DNA from: a virus | Virus record (IMG/VR): IMGVR_UViG_3300044846_002887 | Coordinates: 1-22,731 of that record | DNA: 22,731 nucleotides | Direction: 5' to 3' (one strand) | Part shown: positions 7,492-18,291 of the stretch, piece after piece | Layout of the letters: each line of letters opens with the position of its first letter | Position numbering within the stretch: the first letter of the stretch is position 1 | Made by a program: the position numbers and the translations under genes | The notes under the pieces: model-generated | Told to the model about the DNA's origin: nothing | Database searches by the model: none | The model's input: the letters and a program-made list of their open reading frames with translations, nothing else

Positions 7492-8175
7492 TTAATAAAC
7501 TATCTTATTGGATTTTCTAATGTTTTCATCACCCCATAATGGTTGGAGGTTTTCTAACGCCCAACATTTATTAAACTCTTTATCACCTATTTCTTTAATA
7601 TCAAACGATGAAATTGGGATGATGTGGTCTACGTGCCATTGTCCATAATTATCCCAAGTAATAACTCCTGTGAATTTGCTTTCTAAATGTTCTATTAATT
7701 GTTCGGGAGTATATTTTAGAATATCAAAATAGTGTCCGTTTTTTTGAATGTTTCTTTCTTTTAATACTTGATAAATTGCGGTTCTGAAATTGTTGATTAA
7801 CTTATAGAGGGGATCGTTTGCTTTACGGGTTTTTTCGTAATTCCTTTTGGTTTCTCTCCATTTATCAATATTTTCTTCTCTCCATTTTTTTTGATATTCT
7901 TTAAGGTGTTCTTTTTTATCTTGAGACCATATTTTATGATAGTTAAGTTTCTTTTCTTTATGTTTATGGTAATTTCTTTTATCTGAAACAGATTTACCAC
8001 CCTTATATTTCATTCCAGATGGTCCTATCTTTATACCGCTTTCTTTTAATACCCGTAATACAATATGTTTTTTAATGTTTAGTTTTTCGGAAATAGATGG
8101 TGAACCCAACATTTCATCGGTATAAAGCCTGATTATTTCTTTTATAGTGTTATCATCTAAAATAATTTTTTTCAT
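7492..8175 (-). CDS. HNH endonuclease (free-standing, possibly homing)
   Basis: 227 residues. Residues ~1-50 look like a helix-turn-helix (NTIKEIIRLYTDEMLGSPSI, then SEKLNIKKHIVLRVLKESGI), followed by a long basic linker rich in Lys, Asn, Tyr and Trp. The nuclease core is near the C-terminus: WHVDHIIPISSF supplies the paired histidines, and CWALENLQPLWGDENIRKSN supplies the Asn and the final metal-site region. Such genes insert next to conserved phage genes; this one lies just downstream of the major capsid gene, separated from it by a terminator, and has its own octamer 4 nt before the ATG. It may promote its own spread or affect related phages. The enzyme class is secure; the homing role is inferred from position. 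Confidence 0.85.
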   Translation of the reverse strand: MKKIILDDNTIKEIIRLYTDEMLGSPSISEKLNIKKHIVLRVLKESGIKIGPSGMKYKGGKSVSDKRNYHKHKEKKLNYHKIWSQDKKEHLKEYQKKWREENIDKWRETKRNYEKTRKANDPLYKLINNFRTAIYQVLKERNIQKNGHYFDILKYTPEQLIEHLESKFTGVITWDNYGQWHVDHIIPISSFDIKEIGDKEFNKCWALENLQPLWGDENIRKSNKIVY

Positions 8176-8274: not shown

Positions 8275-10137
8275 TTATCTCAATTCTCTCAAATCAAATG
8301 TACGAACACCATCAACAGTAATACGCGCATAAAATCTGTTGTTAACCATTTTTTTCGCGTAACGTGTCATTATACCTTTGATAGGTGTAAAGTTGAACGG
8401 ATTGTACATTGTAGGTGTTAATTGTAGAGGTACATACGGTGCGTAGATGTAACCTGTGTCAAGAAGTGAAGTACCTTTATGACCCAACAATACTTGGTTT
8501 GGTGGGAAGTAAGGATCACGATACACTTGGTAACGTCCTGCAAGAGTACCAACTCTTTCAATACCCATGTTATACTGATCTTGCTCAGGAGATGCGTTAG
8601 ATACGTGGAAGTATTCTAAATCATCAAAGATTGCTGAAACTTCAGAAGATACAACGATCCAGTTTGCACCACCTCTCAAAGTAGATTTGTGGATTTGTGC
8701 AGACAATTGGTTAATCGCAGTAATCAACGTTTGATTCCAATCTTTTTGAGTGTAAGATGTAGTTTGTGCAATTCTTCTCCATCCGTTGTAATCCCAACGT
8801 AGGTTCCAAGCCGCACCTTTTCTCAAGTCACGAAGAATTTCACGATCGATTTCAGCAGCAACTTGCTCTGACAATAGGGCTGTCAATTCAGCCTCAGCAT
8901 CAATGTTGTGGAATGCCGCAACATCTTGTGCTAATTCAGGAGACCATTGTGCTCTAAGTTTTCTTTCAGACACAGAAACTGTTACAGATTCCAAGTCAAA
9001 AGAAACCTCACCGATTTTTTCTTCAAACTCAAGTTCTTCATATCTTCTCCAAACAGCAGTAAATGAAGTTCCTGAAGTGATAGCAGAAATAGATGAACCT
9101 GTGTAACCATCAAGTGAATCATCACCACATGAAGCACAAGCAGGACAAGACAAATCTACTTCAAGGAAAATACAACCATTAGCATCACAAATATCGTAGA
9201 ATGAACCACCGTTACCATCTACAGGCCATGTAGTTGGTGTTTGTTGTCCATACTGAACAATACCTTTACCATATTTTTGAGTTACAACTCTAAACAATAG
9301 TGGAGTTGTTGTTGTAGGTAGAGGACAAACGTTATTTGAACCAAACCCAAGACCTGTATTAGGAAGAACTTTCAAATCAGACAAGAAAGTCTCACTATCA
9401 ATTTCATTTCCATCAGGACCTACTAATTTACCAGCACCAGGGATATTGTTCCATCCACAAAGTTTGATAAGAACTTTACGTGTGTTACCAACATATGCGT
9501 TAGTCAAAGAACCTGTAGCGTCAACTAAATCACCATTACTCCATACAACAACTTGTGCTGGTGCAGTAATTGCAGACCAACGTCCTTTAGAGTAATCAAA
9601 CAATCCTGGAGGATCAAGTCCTGCTTCAGCACCTTCGTAGAACAAGTCATAAAGGTTTTTAGCGAAAGGATAGTTAGGCGATGCACTTGAATTAGGATAA
9701 CCTTGTCCAGGGTTATTCAATGCATTATTATTAGCCGCAGCTTCAGGAGATCCAATTGGTGGATAGTGTTCTGCAGAAGTTGTTCCATATCCGTCTTGAA
9801 ATCCTTGGATACGAGGTACAAAGTAGAACAATTTACCGATAGGTAAGTTCATTGCTTGTACTGATACGATATCGTTAGCCAACAATTTAGAGAAAACTCT
9901 TCTTACGATAGGGAAAACAACAGTTTCAAAAGCTCCGTTTGAACCTTCAGAAGTTGCTTCGTTAATCAAGAAAGAAGCTTGGTTTTCATACAACTGTGCT
10001 ACGTTTTCTTTTAGATGTCCTTTAAGTCCATCAAGGAACCCTAATCTGTCCCATTTGTTAATTGTGTCTTCTTTGATAACTTTTAGGTGCTTAAGCCCAA
10101 TGTTACCTACAAGACCTGATTCTAATAATGCTCCCAT
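8275..10137 (-). CDS. Major capsid protein, T4 gp23 family
   Basis: 620 residues, longer than T4 gp23 (about 520). The N-terminus ends in ENQASFLINE|ATSEG. Like T4 gp23, where cleavage follows FLTE at residue 65, this gives a predicted prohead-protease cut after Glu60. Residues 79-108 (RRVFSKLLANDIVSVQAMNL, then PIGKLFYF) and ~393-433 (KLRAQWSPELAQDVAAFHNI, then DAEAELTALLSEQVAAEIDR) match gp23 closely; further on are YQVYRDPYFPPNQVLLGHKG and GYIYAPYVPLQLTP. The family has the HK97 fold and forms the hexamers of the head. An insertion around residues 225-350 carries a Cys cluster (C317, C322, C331, C334, C337) absent from T4. The gene follows the scaffold gene and is closed by a terminator. 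No T4 gp24-like vertex gene follows it. Confidence 0.95.
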   Translation of the reverse strand: MGALLESGLVGNIGLKHLKVIKEDTINKWDRLGFLDGLKGHLKENVAQLYENQASFLINEATSEGSNGAFETVVFPIVRRVFSKLLANDIVSVQAMNLPIGKLFYFVPRIQGFQDGYGTTSAEHYPPIGSPEAAANNNALNNPGQGYPNSSASPNYPFAKNLYDLFYEGAEAGLDPPGLFDYSKGRWSAITAPAQVVVWSNGDLVDATGSLTNAYVGNTRKVLIKLCGWNNIPGAGKLVGPDGNEIDSETFLSDLKVLPNTGLGFGSNNVCPLPTTTTPLLFRVVTQKYGKGIVQYGQQTPTTWPVDGNGGSFYDICDANGCIFLEVDLSCPACASCGDDSLDGYTGSSISAITSGTSFTAVWRRYEELEFEEKIGEVSFDLESVTVSVSERKLRAQWSPELAQDVAAFHNIDAEAELTALLSEQVAAEIDREILRDLRKGAAWNLRWDYNGWRRIAQTTSYTQKDWNQTLITAINQLSAQIHKSTLRGGANWIVVSSEVSAIFDDLEYFHVSNASPEQDQYNMGIERVGTLAGRYQVYRDPYFPPNQVLLGHKGTSLLDTGYIYAPYVPLQLTPTMYNPFNFTPIKGIMTRYAKKMVNNRFYARITVDGVRTFDLRELR

Positions 10138-12136: not shown

Positions 12137-12853
12137 TTATTTACCCAAATAATCGGATAAACGTTTCATTAAGTCAAGTGATTTGTTTCCACTATCACCA
12201 ACATTTCTCTCAACTGCCATTTTTTTGTCCTCTTCTAAATTCTCATCAAACTTCATTCTTTCATTTTCATCACTGAAAAGATAAGCACCAGGAGTTGATG
12301 GAGAAGATACCAAGTCAAAACAGATTAATTCAAAATCATCTTGAACTTCGTTTTGTTCACCAACCTTTTTTAGAGAGCCAACACCACGAGAAGAAATACC
12401 AAGTGTTACACCTTGTCTTAAATAGTTTGCGGCTAAATCGCCTTTTGTGGAACATATACCCCTTTCGTGAAATCCAGGACTTGTAAGTAACCTTAACTTA
12501 CCTAAAAGAACAGGTCCGTCCCACCATACTTCAGTTATAATGTGTGATACTCTATCTAAATCTATAAGAGATGATTCGGGGTGGTTAAGTTCGGAAAGGG
12601 AAGTTCCTTTGTCAATCATTTTTTTATAATTTTCAGCTTCCCTTTTTAATACCTTTTCTGGATATACTCTTCCGTTCCTATTTGGGGTGTTGTATTTTTG
12701 TAAAACAGCGTAGAATTCAAATGGTTTTGAATGATCTAAAAAGTTCTTCTGTTCCATTATAAAATGGTTTTCGTGAGTTTTTGGATTAATATATCCTGCG
12801 TCATATTCAATAAGAATTCCCCTACCTGTATCGTTTGGTCCTAGTATCTTCAT
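12137..12853 (-). CDS. Prohead maturation protease, T4 gp21 family
   Basis: 238 residues. The serine-protease signature of the gp21/herpesvirus-assemblin-like fold is visible: FEFYAVLQKYNTPNRNGRVY near residue 46, catalytic His91 in SELNHPE, and the Ser pair 154-155 in LGISSRGVGS. Residues D174-D180 (DDFELICFD) and PSTPGA at 185-190 follow as in other family members. The enzyme cuts scaffold, capsid protein and internal proteins after (L/I)xE in the assembled prohead, then removes itself; sites of this type occur in the neighbours (for example FLINE|A in the capsid protein). Gene order (portal, protease, scaffold, capsid) matches T4. The residue choice for the third catalytic position is not certain. 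Confidence 0.92.
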   Translation of the reverse strand: MKILGPNDTGRGILIEYDAGYINPKTHENHFIMEQKNFLDHSKPFEFYAVLQKYNTPNRNGRVYPEKVLKREAENYKKMIDKGTSLSELNHPESSLIDLDRVSHIITEVWWDGPVLLGKLRLLTSPGFHERGICSTKGDLAANYLRQGVTLGISSRGVGSLKKVGEQNEVQDDFELICFDLVSSPSTPGAYLFSDENERMKFDENLEEDKKMAVERNVGDSGNKSLDLMKRLSDYLGK

Positions 12854-12868: not shown

Positions 12869-12876
12869 AATAAATA
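12869..12876 (-). promoter_or_regulatory. Late-promoter-like octamer (7 of 8) for the protease gene
   Basis: TATTTATT in sense direction, 15 nt before the protease ATG and immediately after the stop of the 12877 gene. Only the last base departs from TATTTATA. Confidence 0.4.
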
Positions 12877-13344
12877 TTAAACTTTTTCTATTTTTACCTT
12901 CTGTGGTTTTGAATTTCCATTTTTTGTCAAATAAAACTTGAAATACTCATTTCCCGTGAAAACATCAGAGTATATTTCTTTGGTTAAATTTTTAAGTGAT
13001 TTTTTTAGTTTTGTGGATTTGAAATCTATTGTTTCATTTAAGAATAGATTTATTTCTAAATTCATAAAAGATTTCTTTTTTAGTTGTAAACCACTTGTTC
13101 TTAAATCTAAATCAACAATAAATTTATCATCAAATAATGTTTTATCTAAATTTTCATAAACGGAGTGTTTAACTGCTCTATTCATATTAAGAACTAATCT
13201 TGTCCAATTTTCTACTTCTAATTTTGGTTCTACCCATGTTTGAATGTTTAAGTAAAGTGATTTGAATTCTTTTGAGTCAACTGTACCATACAATACTTTT
13301 GATGTCCTAAAACCGTTGATTTTGGAGGTTTTTCCTTTTTTCAT
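12877..13344 (-). CDS. Hypothetical protein in the head operon (155 aa)
   Basis: 155 residues, basic, mixed alpha/beta: INGFRTSKVLYGTVDSKEFK, then SLYLNIQTWVEPKLEVENW, then LVLNMNRAVKHSVYENLD, ending in a strand plus a Lys-rich tail (QKVKIEKV). I do not recognise a family with known function, though I believe similar proteins recur in Bacteroidota phages. Position between portal and protease corresponds to T4 genes 67/68, which encode small core proteins; sequence does not show relationship to either. The start is 92 nt from the divergent bS21 gene; no octamer is present there, so its promoter is uncertain. Confidence 0.6.
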   Translation of the reverse strand: MKKGKTSKINGFRTSKVLYGTVDSKEFKSLYLNIQTWVEPKLEVENWTRLVLNMNRAVKHSVYENLDKTLFDDKFIVDLDLRTSGLQLKKKSFMNLEINLFLNETIDFKSTKLKKSLKNLTKEIYSDVFTGNEYFKFYLTKNGNSKPQKVKIEKV

Positions 13345-13365: not shown

Positions 13366-13396
13366 TGTTTATTTTATTGAAGTTTATGTAAATTTG
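13366..13396 (+). promoter_or_regulatory. Host-type promoter for bS21 (strong -7, weak -33)
   Basis: TAAATTTG at 13389-13396 matches the Bacteroidota -7 box TAnnTTTG exactly. Nineteen nt upstream the sequence is TGTT (13366-13369), a poor match to the -33 TTTG. The leader to the ATG would be ~30 nt, A-rich, with no Shine-Dalgarno sequence. Confidence 0.45.
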
Positions 13397-13436
13397 GGAT
13401 ATATATCAATATAACAAAAAACTAACTAAATAATTT

Positions 13437-13622
13437 ATGCTTATTGTAACAGTCAAAAAAAATGATATTGAACGTGCCCTGAAGGAACTTAAAAGTAAGG
13501 TTATTAAAACACGTCAAAATTCTAAACTAAATGAGAGGAGAGAGTATACAAAAAAATCTGTCCTTAAAAGACAGATTTTTAAAAAGGCTGAATATCTTCA
13601 GAAATTTAAATCACAAAATTAA
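13437..13622 (+). CDS. rpsU: Phage-encoded ribosomal protein bS21
   Basis: 61 residues with the full bS21 layout: strand MLIVTVKKNDIERALKELKS, then a first helix with K..RQNSKLNERREYTKK (the R-x-R-x-E/Y-x-x(K/P)-S segment) and a second basic helix SVLKRQIFKKAEYLQKFKSQ. It resembles the Bacteroidota form (starting MLI.PVK...IERALK.Y/LK) more than the E. coli form. bS21 binds the small subunit near the anti-Shine-Dalgarno end of 16S rRNA; in Bacteroidota it helps hold that sequence occluded. Phage copies are known in large and T4-like aquatic phages. Here it is the only + strand gene inside a minus-strand head module, with its own host-type promoter box, and its stop overlaps the convergent stop by 4 bases (TTAA). 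It probably joins host ribosomes to alter initiation; that effect is inference. Confidence 0.9.
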   Translation: MLIVTVKKNDIERALKELKSKVIKTRQNSKLNERREYTKKSVLKRQIFKKAEYLQKFKSQN

Positions 13623-14338
13623 ATATTTTTATTTAACTCTTGTAGTTTGAAATAGTTAATACGGGAGAACTCTTCCGCGTTTACTCTATTTAATGTTTCA
13701 TTAATACGTTGTAATGTTTCCGTATCACTCTCACTTTCTTTAAGTTCCTCTAATTTGTCTGTGACACTTTCTTTTATTACCTCAAATTTTAATTTTAATT
13801 TTTTTTCATCTTCAGATAAGATACTTTTAAGTTTTTTAGTATCACTTTCATTTAATGAACCTAAAAAATCGTTTACAGTTTTGTTTGCAACATTGACTAA
13901 TTGTTTTAGAGGTATCTTTTCTGAAATTTCAGTTACATCTGAAGGTTCTTGTTTTAAGTTTTCTAAAATTATTTTTTTACTTTTAATTTTATTTTCTAAT
14001 GTAAGAACGTTTGTTGAGAATAGGTTATCTAAATTTTCATATTTGTTTTCAGTTTTAACGTCCGCTAACCAAAGGTTCACCTCATCAATCTGTTTTTTCG
14101 TTATTTTATTTACAGTATTTTCATATAACGTGATTGACTCATTAATTAACTCGGTTCCTGTAGATTCGTTTAACGATTTTTTTGAGGATAGTTCGTCGTA
14201 AAGAAAAAACAATTTACTTAAATTTTTATTCTCCAAAACCAACTCCTTAAAAATAAACATATTCGGTTTAAATGTATCTCTTCCGTAAGATTCAGTTAGA
14301 CATTTTTCCACCTTACTTTTTATTAATCCTATTTTCAT
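13619..14338 (-). CDS. Putative prohead core/internal protein (239 aa)
   Basis: 239 residues, almost entirely charged helices (Lys/Glu/Leu/Asn/Ser) with likely coiled-coil stretches (for example LKKLKLKFEVIKE-type and LEELKESESDTETLQRINE). The N-terminus MKIGLIKSKVEKCLTE|SYGRD ends in LTE, like the T4 gp23 and internal-protein cleavage sites. Many further (L/I)xE tripeptides occur (LNES, INES, SLNE, VIKE). It lies directly downstream of the portal gene, where T4 has the prohead core genes 67 and 68, and its composition fits a core component degraded or trimmed at maturation. No sequence family is recognised. The stop overlaps that of bS21 on the other strand by 4 nt. Confidence 0.6.
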   Translation of the reverse strand: MKIGLIKSKVEKCLTESYGRDTFKPNMFIFKELVLENKNLSKLFFLYDELSSKKSLNESTGTELINESITLYENTVNKITKKQIDEVNLWLADVKTENKYENLDNLFSTNVLTLENKIKSKKIILENLKQEPSDVTEISEKIPLKQLVNVANKTVNDFLGSLNESDTKKLKSILSEDEKKLKLKFEVIKESVTDKLEELKESESDTETLQRINETLNRVNAEEFSRINYFKLQELNKNI

Positions 14339-14349
14339 AACTTTTTTAA

Positions 14350-14357
14350 TATAAATA
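14350..14357 (-). promoter_or_regulatory. Late-promoter-like octamer for the 239-residue core protein
   Basis: TATTTATA in sense direction (within TATATTTATATT), 11 nt before the ATG at 14338 and 2 nt beyond the portal stop. Confidence 0.5.
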
Positions 14358-14359
14358 TA

Positions 14360-16138
14360 TTAATCTTTAAGTATTTTCAGTAATTCGTTTTCAATATCCC
14401 CCAAAGAAGAGTTTTTATACATAAAATCAATATCGTCACCTTCTAAAAGTAAATTTTCAAGCTTCTTTTTACTTTCAGGTAAACCACCTGGTTCTGGTGG
14501 TGGCGGTCCTGGAGGTGGTGCTCCTCCACCCATATCTAATCCACCTCCTTCAGGTGGTGGCGGTGGTGTACCATCAGTTGTACCACTTACAGTTTTGTAT
14601 AATCTATCAATAGTATCAAACATACCTGTATGTGTAATGACTGTTGCAGTATTTGCAAGTTCCGCAGCAACTGCTCTTTCCATTCTTTGTCTTTGTGTAT
14701 CAATTTTAATATCTTCATCAGAGAACCCAAAAATATGTTTTTTAGCCCAAGTTGCTGATGTTGGTGCAAGCGAATTTGGTATTTCACTAACAAGATCTTT
14801 ATATAACAATACTTTTTCTTTCCATACATCAACCATTAATAAATCTGCCTGTTTTGATGGATTATTAAGTCCTAACGTGAAATTTTGTAGTTCGTCCTCA
14901 AAACCTAATAAGAATAAATGAATAATTGCAATTTTATTTAATTCACCAAGCATATTTTTTTGGATTCTATTAATTGTTCTTGCAAAACGAATATCTAATA
15001 AAGATAAATTTTTACCATCACCAACTGGTTCCTCAAACCCAAGATACGCTTTAGGGATACGTAAAGCTGTGACAAGTTTCTTTTGAATATATTCAATATC
15101 CGCAATTTCAGATAGGTTTTGTGCGCCGGCTAATGTCTCAATAGGCATTGTTTGTGTCGCATCTCTAACAGGAATAAAATAATCTTGATCTACTGCCATT
15201 TGATTAAAACGTAAATCAACATTTCCTGTTTTATTATCTACTATTTGATCTCTCTTAAATTTATTAGCGACTCTTTGTACATACGGTTCAACATCCTTGT
15301 CGTCCATATTACCTACAAATATTTTAAATACTCTCCTTTCAGGGGCTCTTGATGTTCTATAAATCAACATTGCGTCTTCCGCTAAAACTAATTGTTTCCA
15401 AATCCTTCGTGCTTTTTCTAACATAGATGTTCCATATGGTAGTTTTCTGTCATCACCCAACAATCTAAAGTGAGCCACCTCAAAAGTGTTGAACTCCATA
15501 TTCTTTTCTTTCCAATTGAACCTTAAACCTTTTTCATCTGTTTTGACTTCGGTATTTGGACTTCTTGGTGTCATACCCTTTTCCATCCTCTCAATTTCAA
15601 TATTAGGTAATTGCACACCGCCAATTATACCTTTTTCTGGATCTAATTTTAGATAAACAAAATTATCACCATACTTACAGGTGTTTCTAATCCACATCTG
15701 CAGATTGGTATTAATATCTAAAGTATTATTAAATAAATCGGCTAAAATACCTTTTATTCTTTTTGATTCTGAATATATTTGAAGTATGTGTCCGTCTTCA
15801 TTTGGTGTTGTGGATTCTTCAGCATAGATATCAAGAGCTGTTGATATTTCAGGAGTAAACTCCATAGATTCATAATCGTAAAACGCGGCTAATCTCGTTG
15901 GTTCATAATAAATTGCTTGAGTATATAGGTTGTTTTCAATCTTTGTCCATTGATTTGCCAAAAATAAAGATTGTTGCGCTTGTAATTTTTCTTTCTCAAA
16001 CTCGTTTCTATCTTTAGTTCTTAATAACTCTTTTTTATCAAATCTATGTGTTGGCACATCCTGTCCTAATAATGAATTAGGTCCAAATGTTTTTGATAGC
16101 CTTTGCCATACGGTTAATTGGTTTGTGTTTTGTTCCAT
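14360..16138 (-). CDS. Portal protein, T4 gp20 family
   Basis: 592 residues, close to family size. Signature regions: YEPTRLAAFYDYESMEFTPE (79-98), ALDIYAEESTTPNE (101-114), CKYGDNFVYLKLDPEKGI (154-171), EVAHFRLLGDDRKLPYGTSM (220-239) and especially LIYRTSRAPERRVFKIFVGN (258-277), the most conserved gp20 segment. The dodecameric portal sits at one vertex, nucleates prohead assembly and is the channel for the DNA pumped by the terminase two genes upstream. The C-terminus is unusual: residues ~525-554 are a Pro/Gly linker followed by a short acidic helix-rich tail (LLLEGDDIDF, SLGDIENELLKILKD), which might be trimmed by the protease (LLLE|G). It is preceded by a TATTTATA octamer. Confidence 0.95.
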   Translation of the reverse strand: MEQNTNQLTVWQRLSKTFGPNSLLGQDVPTHRFDKKELLRTKDRNEFEKEKLQAQQSLFLANQWTKIENNLYTQAIYYEPTRLAAFYDYESMEFTPEISTALDIYAEESTTPNEDGHILQIYSESKRIKGILADLFNNTLDINTNLQMWIRNTCKYGDNFVYLKLDPEKGIIGGVQLPNIEIERMEKGMTPRSPNTEVKTDEKGLRFNWKEKNMEFNTFEVAHFRLLGDDRKLPYGTSMLEKARRIWKQLVLAEDAMLIYRTSRAPERRVFKIFVGNMDDKDVEPYVQRVANKFKRDQIVDNKTGNVDLRFNQMAVDQDYFIPVRDATQTMPIETLAGAQNLSEIADIEYIQKKLVTALRIPKAYLGFEEPVGDGKNLSLLDIRFARTINRIQKNMLGELNKIAIIHLFLLGFEDELQNFTLGLNNPSKQADLLMVDVWKEKVLLYKDLVSEIPNSLAPTSATWAKKHIFGFSDEDIKIDTQRQRMERAVAAELANTATVITHTGMFDTIDRLYKTVSGTTDGTPPPPPEGGGLDMGGGAPPPGPPPPEPGGLPESKKKLENLLLEGDDIDFMYKNSSLGDIENELLKILKD

Positions 16139-16494: not shown

Positions 16495-18270
16495 TTATCT
16501 TTTCATACCCCCGAATAACCATCCGTATTTTATATATTCATCCTTTGATGGACCTGAATTCATTCTTTGTCTTTCAGAAAACATATGAGTATTTGGCATT
16601 ACAGGATCAAAATGAACTTGTTTACCAACAGAATCATTATTACTTACAGTCCACGATTCAATCATTATTTTAGTTTTTTCAACAACTTTTTCAAGTTTTT
16701 GAAATGACGACTCCCCAACGTATATTGCCATTGCTATTGACATTATTAAATCATCATGTTGACCTTTTTGGTGATCGGGTCTACCATTAACATATATGAA
16801 AGTATTCATTTCATTATATAAACGAACACTTTTTACTTTAAACTTATGTCTAACATATTCTTCAAAAGCTGCTATTATTTGAACTCTTTTATTATTAAAG
16901 TTTATTCCTGGTATTTTATCTTGTGCCTTTGGATTATAACTCCAAATATTTGTTGAGTCCACGCCATCAATGTATAAATTCTTATATCCTAATTCTTGCA
17001 TTTTTCTAACTGTTGTAATACCCATACCACCAGTTATATCCACAACACAAAAAGCATTATACATTAACCCCCATTTATATGCGATTTCCGCTAAAGAATC
17101 AGGAGGTATTTTACCAACGTATTCAAAAACCTGCTCTCTTTCGTCAAAATCAACTATTTGGATTGTTGAGAAATCTTCACTATCACCACGAGATACGTCA
17201 ACACCCATAATATATTTGTGTCCCTCAATAGGTTCTTTCCATAACCACAATGAATTACCCATCATTTTATTTGGTGCATCCTCCAGTGTGTTTTGTTTGA
17301 TATAATCAAGTTGTTTACTATCAAATACGTTATCCCCTGAACCTAAAAATTCACAATTTAACTCCTGATTTATTTTTCTTTTGTCATACTTAAGTTTTTT
17401 AACCATTTTCTCATACCAAGTAGAACAAGGTTTGTAACCCTTTGAAAATAAATCACTTAATTCTTTATAATCTCTTTCGTAAGGATCTATGTGTGCAAAT
17501 GAAATATTTTTAGAAGTATCCTTTTCGTCTTTATTTAACAAATAATCAATTAAATCGTCCGTTGGAACCAAAAACAAATCTTTTGCATATCTTGGATCTC
17601 TATACCAAAACATTTCAGAGATTCTGAAATTATTCATCCCCTTTGTTGCTTGGTTATATATCTCGTAATAAATTGGATCATACCCGTTTGGTGTTGATAC
17701 AACGATTACTTTACCACCCGTAGATAGTGACGCCATACAAGCAGCCCAAAAGTCACTATCAGCCTCAATAAACGCCGCCTCATCAAATACAAGTATTGTG
17801 GGGGTAAATCCACGTAATGCATCTTTTGATGTTGCAACTGCTTTTACCTCTGAACCATTTGTTAATTTATAATGTTTTTGTGAGTTTTTATCAACAGAAA
17901 ACCCTGCACCAACCCATTTGGGCCATTGTTCAACAAACGCTCTAATCTTATTTGCCATCTCCATTGATGTATCAAGTTTGTTGGCAATAATTAGAATTTT
18001 TTCGGGACGTTCTTTTTTTGCAAAAACTAACCTTTTTGATACCCAAGCAGCAGTTACAGTTGATACACCCGCCTGTCTATATTTTAATGCGATATTTTCT
18101 TCGTAATCCTCATAATCTTTAAGTAGTGAAACCTGATCTGGAAACAATTCTAATGGAACATATTTTGATACTGTATTATCATATGTTTGTAGGTATGTGC
18201 GAAGAGCATATGGTGTATCCCTCATACATTTAACATATTCAAGCATCAACTGTTCTTTTGTCAAACTCAT
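16495..18270 (-). CDS. Terminase large subunit, T4 gp17 family
   Basis: 591 residues, typical for the family. The ATPase half shows Walker A YRQAGVST (64-71, with Val where most P-loops have Lys), Walker B ILVFDEA (159-165; D163, catalytic E164) and the coupling motif STPNG (192-196). The RNase H-like nuclease half shows the acidic residues D358 (GVDVSRGDSEDF), D411 (VVDITGG) and D506/D507 (GQHDDLIMS). The enzyme cuts concatemeric DNA and pumps it through the portal. A TATTTATA octamer precedes it by 13 nt, on the far side of a terminator closing the upstream operon. No small terminase subunit is visible in the window. Confidence 0.96.
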   Translation of the reverse strand: MSLTKEQLMLEYVKCMRDTPYALRTYLQTYDNTVSKYVPLELFPDQVSLLKDYEDYEENIALKYRQAGVSTVTAAWVSKRLVFAKKERPEKILIIANKLDTSMEMANKIRAFVEQWPKWVGAGFSVDKNSQKHYKLTNGSEVKAVATSKDALRGFTPTILVFDEAAFIEADSDFWAACMASLSTGGKVIVVSTPNGYDPIYYEIYNQATKGMNNFRISEMFWYRDPRYAKDLFLVPTDDLIDYLLNKDEKDTSKNISFAHIDPYERDYKELSDLFSKGYKPCSTWYEKMVKKLKYDKRKINQELNCEFLGSGDNVFDSKQLDYIKQNTLEDAPNKMMGNSLWLWKEPIEGHKYIMGVDVSRGDSEDFSTIQIVDFDEREQVFEYVGKIPPDSLAEIAYKWGLMYNAFCVVDITGGMGITTVRKMQELGYKNLYIDGVDSTNIWSYNPKAQDKIPGINFNNKRVQIIAAFEEYVRHKFKVKSVRLYNEMNTFIYVNGRPDHQKGQHDDLIMSIAMAIYVGESSFQKLEKVVEKTKIMIESWTVSNNDSVGKQVHFDPVMPNTHMFSERQRMNSGPSKDEYIKYGWLFGGMKR

Positions 18271-18283
18271 AAAATGATTTACA

Positions 18284-18291
18284 TATAAATA
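18284..18291 (-). promoter_or_regulatory. Late-promoter-like octamer for the terminase gene
   Basis: TATTTATA in sense direction, 13 nt before the terminase ATG and directly after a terminator hairpin. Confidence 0.55.

Follow-up and report, generated by a model that had tools for sequence, protein, structure and literature searches.

Why does a phage carry a gene for ribosomal protein bS21 among its head genes, on the strand opposite to its neighbors, and how could this gene be expressed and act in the infected cell? Many aquatic phages carry bS21, and we approach the reason for this here through a contrast in Shine-Dalgarno (SD) pairing between phage and host genes. The DNA analyzed was a 22,731-base virus record (the window; G+C content of 32.9%), in which an earlier note had picked out such a gene.

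The window encodes a Bacteroidota-type bS21 protein

The ORF at 13437-13622 on the plus strand, which starts with ATG and has 61 codons, matched the Ribosomal_S21 family (PF01165) at E 2.7e-8 and 33.8 bits, compared to the curated Pfam cut-off of 27. The closest solved structure was the bS21 protein of 7jil (E 3.3e-6), which is the ribosome of Flavobacterium johnsoniae according to Chen et al. (2022; PMC9723584). The complete 61-residue plus-strand bS21 gene described in the earlier note was thereby confirmed, and its product is a Bacteroidota-type phage bS21 with an aromatic residue that blocks the anti-SD sequence. This residue is Tyr53 in the window protein, corresponding to the Tyr54 position, and it was kept in 82/82 distinct phage proteins (74 Tyr, 6 Phe, and 2 His); the 49 distinct host proteins all have Tyr. 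The C-terminal core of phage bS21 is likewise conserved, the consensus lines of the N-terminal half are consistently unlike those of host bS21, and protein identity between phage and host bS21 is about 40%. The median dN/dS was 0.305 for 237 usable pairs from 50 bS21 sequences of equal length. Scans of the window for tRNAs and Rfam families gave no matches.

bS21 occupies a conserved place in a T4-type head gene cluster

bS21 lies on the plus strand, and the T4-type genes around it all lie on the minus strand. These encode a gp17-type terminase large subunit (16495-18270; PF03237, phrog_2), a gp20-type portal (14360-16138; PF07230, E 1.4e-73), a gp21-type prohead protease (12137-12853; PF03420, E 1.6e-22; late-type box TATTTATT at 12869-12876), and a gp23-type major capsid protein (8275-10137; PF07068, E 6e-73). 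Next to bS21 itself are two minus-strand genes of unassigned function. The convergent 239-aa gene (13619-14338), recognized from its ORF, the neighbor table, and its leaders, has late box TATTTATA at 14350-14357, and the divergent 155-aa gene (12877-13344) is 92 bp from bS21. The 4-base tail-to-tail stop overlap noticed earlier is present, with the convergent gene ending at 13619 inside the end of bS21. The earlier placement of bS21 between the core protein and the protease has to be corrected: the portal and 239-aa genes are on one side and the 155-aa and protease genes on the other, and the core-like protein, rather than adjoining bS21, is encoded beyond the protease. Behind the capsid gene, a 227-aa ORF (7492-8175) with its own late box resembles by eye a freestanding HNH-type endonuclease; Pfam gave no HNH-type match for it.

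A scan with the bS21 protein confirmed 268 relatives, 80 of which were kept. The left neighbor is the minus-strand 155/156-aa gene in 75/81 rows of the neighbor table (window included), and in the remaining 6 no gene is called to the left of bS21 before the contig edge; the overlap of -4 with the convergent gene occurs in 67/81 rows. Protease and portal scans were added so that loci would not be selected on bS21. Among 80 protease-selected loci, 76 span the bS21 interval, and 72 of these have bS21, always on the strand opposite to its neighbors. Among 78 newly fetched portal-selected loci, 67 span the interval and 64 have bS21 (opposite strand in 64/64); the two sets have contigs in common and are not independent. 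bS21 is missing from 4/76 protease-selected loci (L112-L115), and 3/67 portal-selected loci gave no bS21 match. L112-L115 form one group, in which a deletion has removed the first half of bS21 but spared its leader and 3' portion; the leader box and the hairpin described below, with a longer T run, are retained (4370-4420 in L112). Its loss from part of the group makes bS21 dispensable in some settings.

This arrangement is a published one. Chen et al. (2022; PMC9723584) described 47 Bacteroidetes lake-phage genomes, in clades a-e, whose bS21 gene lies on the reverse strand, flanked by two hypothetical genes, amid the terminase, portal, protease, and capsid genes. The window likewise has an opposite-strand bS21 between two conserved hypothetical genes in that region, its G+C content falls within their 31.0-33.7%, and its bS21 has both the aromatic residue at the Tyr54 position and the N-terminal half divergent from hosts that they reported. 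Their genomes are 293-331 kb long, compared to a fragment here and a relative contig of 290,887 bases. We found no feature that sets the window phage apart from those phages as described in the accessible text. Judged by its sequence, the gene is the bS21 of a T4-type Bacteroidota phage, and the phage adds to the lake-phage bS21 group already in print.

The divergent 155-aa protein is highly conserved, with 26 invariant columns across 73 sequences, and gave a confident alpha/beta model (pLDDT of 90.7). The model had no match in the PDB at E 0.001. VIA-align returned no Z of at least 8, and its rows (channel, chaperone, and biotin-ligase domains) are at a level that the VIA-align notes call common. 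Among viral models, there was one match, to A0A8S5L9A5 of Myoviridae sp. ctPuP5, whose function is unnamed, and Pfam and PHROGs gave weak matches only. The protein may or may not correspond to bS21_CN as named by Chen et al. (2022; PMC9723584): the 155-aa gene is present in all seven spanning loci without bS21, whereas bS21_CN is absent from their outgroups.

The bS21 promoter is most simply read as an altered late box

Host-type promoters of Bacteroidota have a -7 box with the consensus TAnnTTTG. In the earlier note, an exact match upstream of bS21, TAAATTTG at 13389-13396, was taken to indicate control by the host polymerase, unlike that of the late neighbors. The match is there, but it does not stand out as a signal: TAAATTTG occurs 9 times in the window compared to 4.85 expected, and 6/100 shuffles hold as many. 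Similarly, TANNTTTG occurs 48 times compared to 38.7 expected, with as many in 11/100 shuffles. On these counts, we did not take the -7 box as a significant signal.

The most conserved element of the leader is TATATATCAA (13400-13409), which is present in 37/38 distinct close leaders. It overlaps a putative promoter box, GATATATA at 13398-13405, which is followed by TCAA and aligns with TATTTATA, the late box that divergent relatives have. TATTTATA itself was found on the bS21 strand in 0/38 close leaders, and the window box is not an exact TATTTAT late box. Among 76 distinct bS21 leaders, 45 contain TATATATCAA, 9 TATTTATATCAA, 7 TATATATATCAA, 2 TATATTTATCAA, 2 TATGTATCAA, and 3 TATATCAA only, and 8 contain none of these. 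Divergent lineages read TATTTATATCAA at the homologous site, and TATTTATATCAA contains the late box found before late head genes. Distinct late leaders carry TATTTAT before the core-like (52/52), protease (73/73), 239-aa (76/76), and terminase (23/23) genes, and less constantly before the portal (37/61) and capsid (29/61) genes. In the 290,887-base relative, 221 genes have leaders of at least 35 bp; TATTTAT occurs within 60 nt upstream of 69 of these genes, compared to 30 for its reverse complement; for TATTTATA, the corresponding counts are 31 and 11. The reversed-sequence control of TATTTATA exceeds its count (48 compared to 31); this control is uninformative for TATTTAT, which is the same read backwards, and we relied on the reverse complement instead. 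TATATATCAA was tried as a genome-wide promoter motif and rejected, because the contigs of six relatives contain 1 to 3 copies each, about as many as of the pattern read backwards. Late boxes on the minus strand of the window are located at 18291, 16174, 14357, 11825, 10184, and 8187. More generally, many genes of this phage group, in the window and in the relative contig L442-L456, have TATTTAT[AT] 5-20 nt upstream, in a strand-specific manner that makes it a candidate late promoter.

Could bS21 nevertheless be expressed from a host-type promoter, with TAAATTTG as its -7 box, and be made early or throughout infection, independently of late control? TAnnTTTG stands directly 5' of TATATATCAA in 30/38 close leaders, and the bS21 box of this clade, unlike those of the late neighbors, is not the exact late box. 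Yet the -7 match is absent or displaced in 7/38 leaders and, by eye, is not seen at the equivalent place in the nine TATTTATATCAA leaders. Nor is TAnnTTTG enriched strand-specifically before genes of the 290-kb relative (23 compared to 17 for the reverse complement, of 221). Moreover, transcript data on relatives, as reported by Chen et al. (2022; PMC9723584), put bS21 alongside the late structural genes, contrary to the separate timing suggested earlier. We consider a host-type promoter unlikely. A late box altered in the clade of the window is the simplest reading, from which we infer late timing of bS21 in this phage; a host-type box may also have been gained beside the altered late box, which would make a double promoter.

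A second element in the intergenic region, which reads GTTTATTTT on the plus strand, was considered as a -33 element of bS21. Its distance from TATATATCAA is 24 nt in close leaders, except for three (23 or 25). However, each of the 77 leaders of the 155-aa gene has it at 18-22 nt from the start codon ATG, even where the bS21 box is missing, which ruled it out as the main reading. On the minus strand, the element reads AAAATAAAC (13367-13375), and it probably belongs to the 155-aa gene, because 76/77 distinct leaders of that gene carry AAAATAAAC (38/38 close leaders).

Phage bS21 genes lack the strong SD of host rpsU

In F. johnsoniae, rpsU, the host bS21 gene, is autoregulated: ribosomes lacking bS21 have a free anti-SD and translate rpsU through its strong SD (McNutt et al., 2023; PMC9976891). 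As described there, SD-autoregulated rpsU genes have exceptionally strong SDs, below -13 kcal/mol, and the autoregulation is suggested as a host defence. We scored SDs as pairing of the 16S tail AACACCUCCUUUCU, whose genomic form was found in 3/8 host genomes, with the 25 nt before the start. All 80 leaders of Flavobacterium-like host rpsU scored -19.0 kcal/mol or lower (median of -21.5), although they comprise only 15 distinct 25-mers. In a phylum sample of 119 genes, 81 scored -9 or lower and 67 scored -13 kcal/mol or lower; a few starts in this sample had been placed too far downstream, so that the count is too low, and another gene, for which there was no start, was dropped. By contrast, 0/71 phage bS21 leaders reached -9 kcal/mol (median of +1.6, lowest of -5.7), and a search extended to -60 found a strong SD in 0/72. 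The window leader scored +1.6 kcal/mol, with another 16S tail than AACACCUCCUUUCU, and has no strong SD. Mock windows scored near -1 for phage and host alike.

By its leader sequence, phage bS21 lacks the element that makes host rpsU responsive and is placed outside host bS21 autoregulation. Phage bS21 is thus like the Flavobacterium rpsU product in its protein family and its anti-SD-occluding aromatic residue, and unlike it in its missing SD (0/71 compared to 80/80), its identity of about 40%, and its late-type box (rpsU as described by McNutt et al., 2023; PMC9976891).

The bS21 codons contain a putative terminator of the opposite strand

An inverted repeat at 13552-13580 in the bS21 codons folds on the minus strand at -12.7 kcal/mol, which 0/200 shuffles equaled, and is followed on that strand by a T tract that extends to about 13545. 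This stable hairpin and T tract, beyond chance, have the sequence features of an intrinsic terminator. Hairpins of -9 kcal/mol or lower occur on the minus strand in 34/88 distinct phage bS21 coding sequences, and 27 of these 34 are at the same site, compared to 1.64 expected from synonymous shuffles; the sequences are related, and hence no probability is attached to this difference. Among the RQI/RQT sequences at the hairpin (n=28), 26 have GTC valine and CAG glutamine, compared to 22/304 valines and 48/264 glutamines elsewhere; the tally covers all RQI/RQT sequences, as a comparison on rows defined by the hairpin would be circular. A paired change, AAA with ATT in 19 sequences and AAG with ACT in 7, alters the amino acid and occurs mostly in one clade. 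On a protease tree of 91 rows, the hairpin at this site is scattered and requires 8 changes.

The 13552-13580 hairpin looks like a terminator of the convergent 239-aa late unit; with the ends of the two genes overlapping, such a terminator would have to lie within bS21. A custom scan found four terminator-like hairpins on the minus strand of the window, compared to 0 to 2 in ten random sequences; the built-in terminator scan, which applies its own stem and tail rules, did not list the 13552-13580 hairpin. Alternatively, the hairpin could act on the plus-strand bS21 message in a stabilizing or regulatory role, as its stem is close to a palindrome, with almost the same folding energy on the two strands (-12.9 and -12.7 kcal/mol). 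This role appears improbable to us: in 32/35 cases, the minus strand has the longer T tract (mean of 7.2 compared to 3.9 of 10), two of the three other minus-strand hairpins fall between late units, and L112-L115, which have lost bS21, retain the hairpin with its longer T run. The antisense relation raised in the earlier note is real in form, and the putative terminator seems to halt opposite-strand transcription within bS21. A late-unit terminator antisense in the codons of a ribosomal protein would be an unusual case of double coding.

A model for phage bS21 in infected cells

We propose that a late-transcribed, SD-less bS21 fills 30S subunits, re-occludes the anti-SD, and displaces host bS21, and that its codons carry an antisense terminator; we assign this model as a whole a probability of roughly 0.55. 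bS21 would be transcribed late from the late-box variant at 13398-13405, in the intergenic region common with the divergent head-cluster gene. As the mRNA has no SD, it should be readable by ordinary host ribosomes with their anti-SD tucked away. Since the occluding aromatic residue is kept, phage bS21 should fill 30S subunits lacking bS21 and hold host rpsU down: with the anti-SD re-occluded, SD-driven translation of rpsU would stay low. As ribosomes turn over, the phage protein would gradually displace host bS21, and its divergent N-terminal half would alter initiation during bulk synthesis of head proteins. In this lineage, the bS21 codons would also carry, in antisense, the terminator of the convergent late unit. 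Replacement of the host copy by the phage copy on the 30S subunits of infected cells, raised in the earlier note, is an idea already present in Chen et al. (2022; PMC9723584), and we infer it here as well.

In favor of this model, we count the protein family, the context in 72/76 and 64/67 loci, the SD contrast, the aromatic residue, the dN/dS, the hairpin tests, and the late box, which occurs at late genes and which divergent lineages have at the homologous site. Expression of bS21 together with late genes in relatives (Chen et al., 2022; PMC9723584) and rpsU autoregulation (McNutt et al., 2023; PMC9976891) also count for it. Against it, we count that the box of the window clade differs from TATTTATA and is preceded by TAnnTTTG in 30/38 leaders, that 54/88 coding sequences have no strong hairpin, and that bS21 is lost in 4/76 loci and unmatched in 3/67. 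In addition, nearly all genes in such hosts and phages have no SD, so that its absence alone is the default state.

This last point also bears on a simpler explanation, in which phage bS21 is a spare part that keeps ribosomes complete once host transcription stops, leaving mRNA choice and rpsU control unchanged. Most late genes of these phages also pair weakly (scored with an incorrect 16S tail), and conservation of the C-terminal core and of the residue that contacts the anti-SD fits a mere substitute. A spare part agrees less well with an N-terminal half that consistently differs from host bS21, which Chen et al. (2022; PMC9723584) also noted, and we place this explanation on the unlikely side.

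A broader interpretation of the displacement model, which we advance tentatively and at distinctly less than even odds, is that the phage turns the host sensor of ribosome composition against the host. Host bS21 would normally be replenished because ribosomes lacking it have their anti-SD free to pair with the SD-rich rpsU message. By filling these ribosomes, an SD-less, occluding phage bS21 would silence the replenishing loop and make replacement one-way late in infection. Placing the phage genes outside the SD feedback loop converts the general idea of replacement into a directional prediction, that host rpsU translation falls and does not recover. Such a protein would answer the defence by autoregulation suggested by McNutt et al. 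(2023; PMC9976891).

The missing SD together with the kept aromatic residue, and the hairpin in the codons as a putative terminator, are additions to the published layout that we did not find in print. The passages at hand of Chen et al. (2022; PMC9723584), which include none on promoters or motifs, make no mention of a missing SD, a late-type box, or a hairpin. A literature search, which was not exhaustive, found no previous account of whether phage bS21 has an SD, or of its promoter or terminator.

bS21 genes without an SD in other phages and in cells

The closest bS21 proteins in the phage collection are those of uncultured phages of 635-642 kb (LR756502, LR745206, and LR756504), with 49%, 42%, and 40% identity, respectively. 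In two of these phages, bS21 is SD-less (-2.4 and -5.1 kcal/mol), like that of the window. Unlike the window gene, it is part of a same-strand gene run with its start touching or overlapping the preceding gene, and none of the 12 query genes from the window occurs within 6 kb of it. The position of the start at the end of the preceding gene in these loci (L457 and L458; 5.7-6.2 kb) suggests that, with no SD, translation is coupled to that of the preceding gene.

In cells, the phage gene has a parallel in two Bacteroidota genomes, G102 (L440) and G117 (L405/L434), where one bS21 gene has a strong SD and a second is SD-less. The SD-less gene of G102 adjoins a sigma-70 gene.
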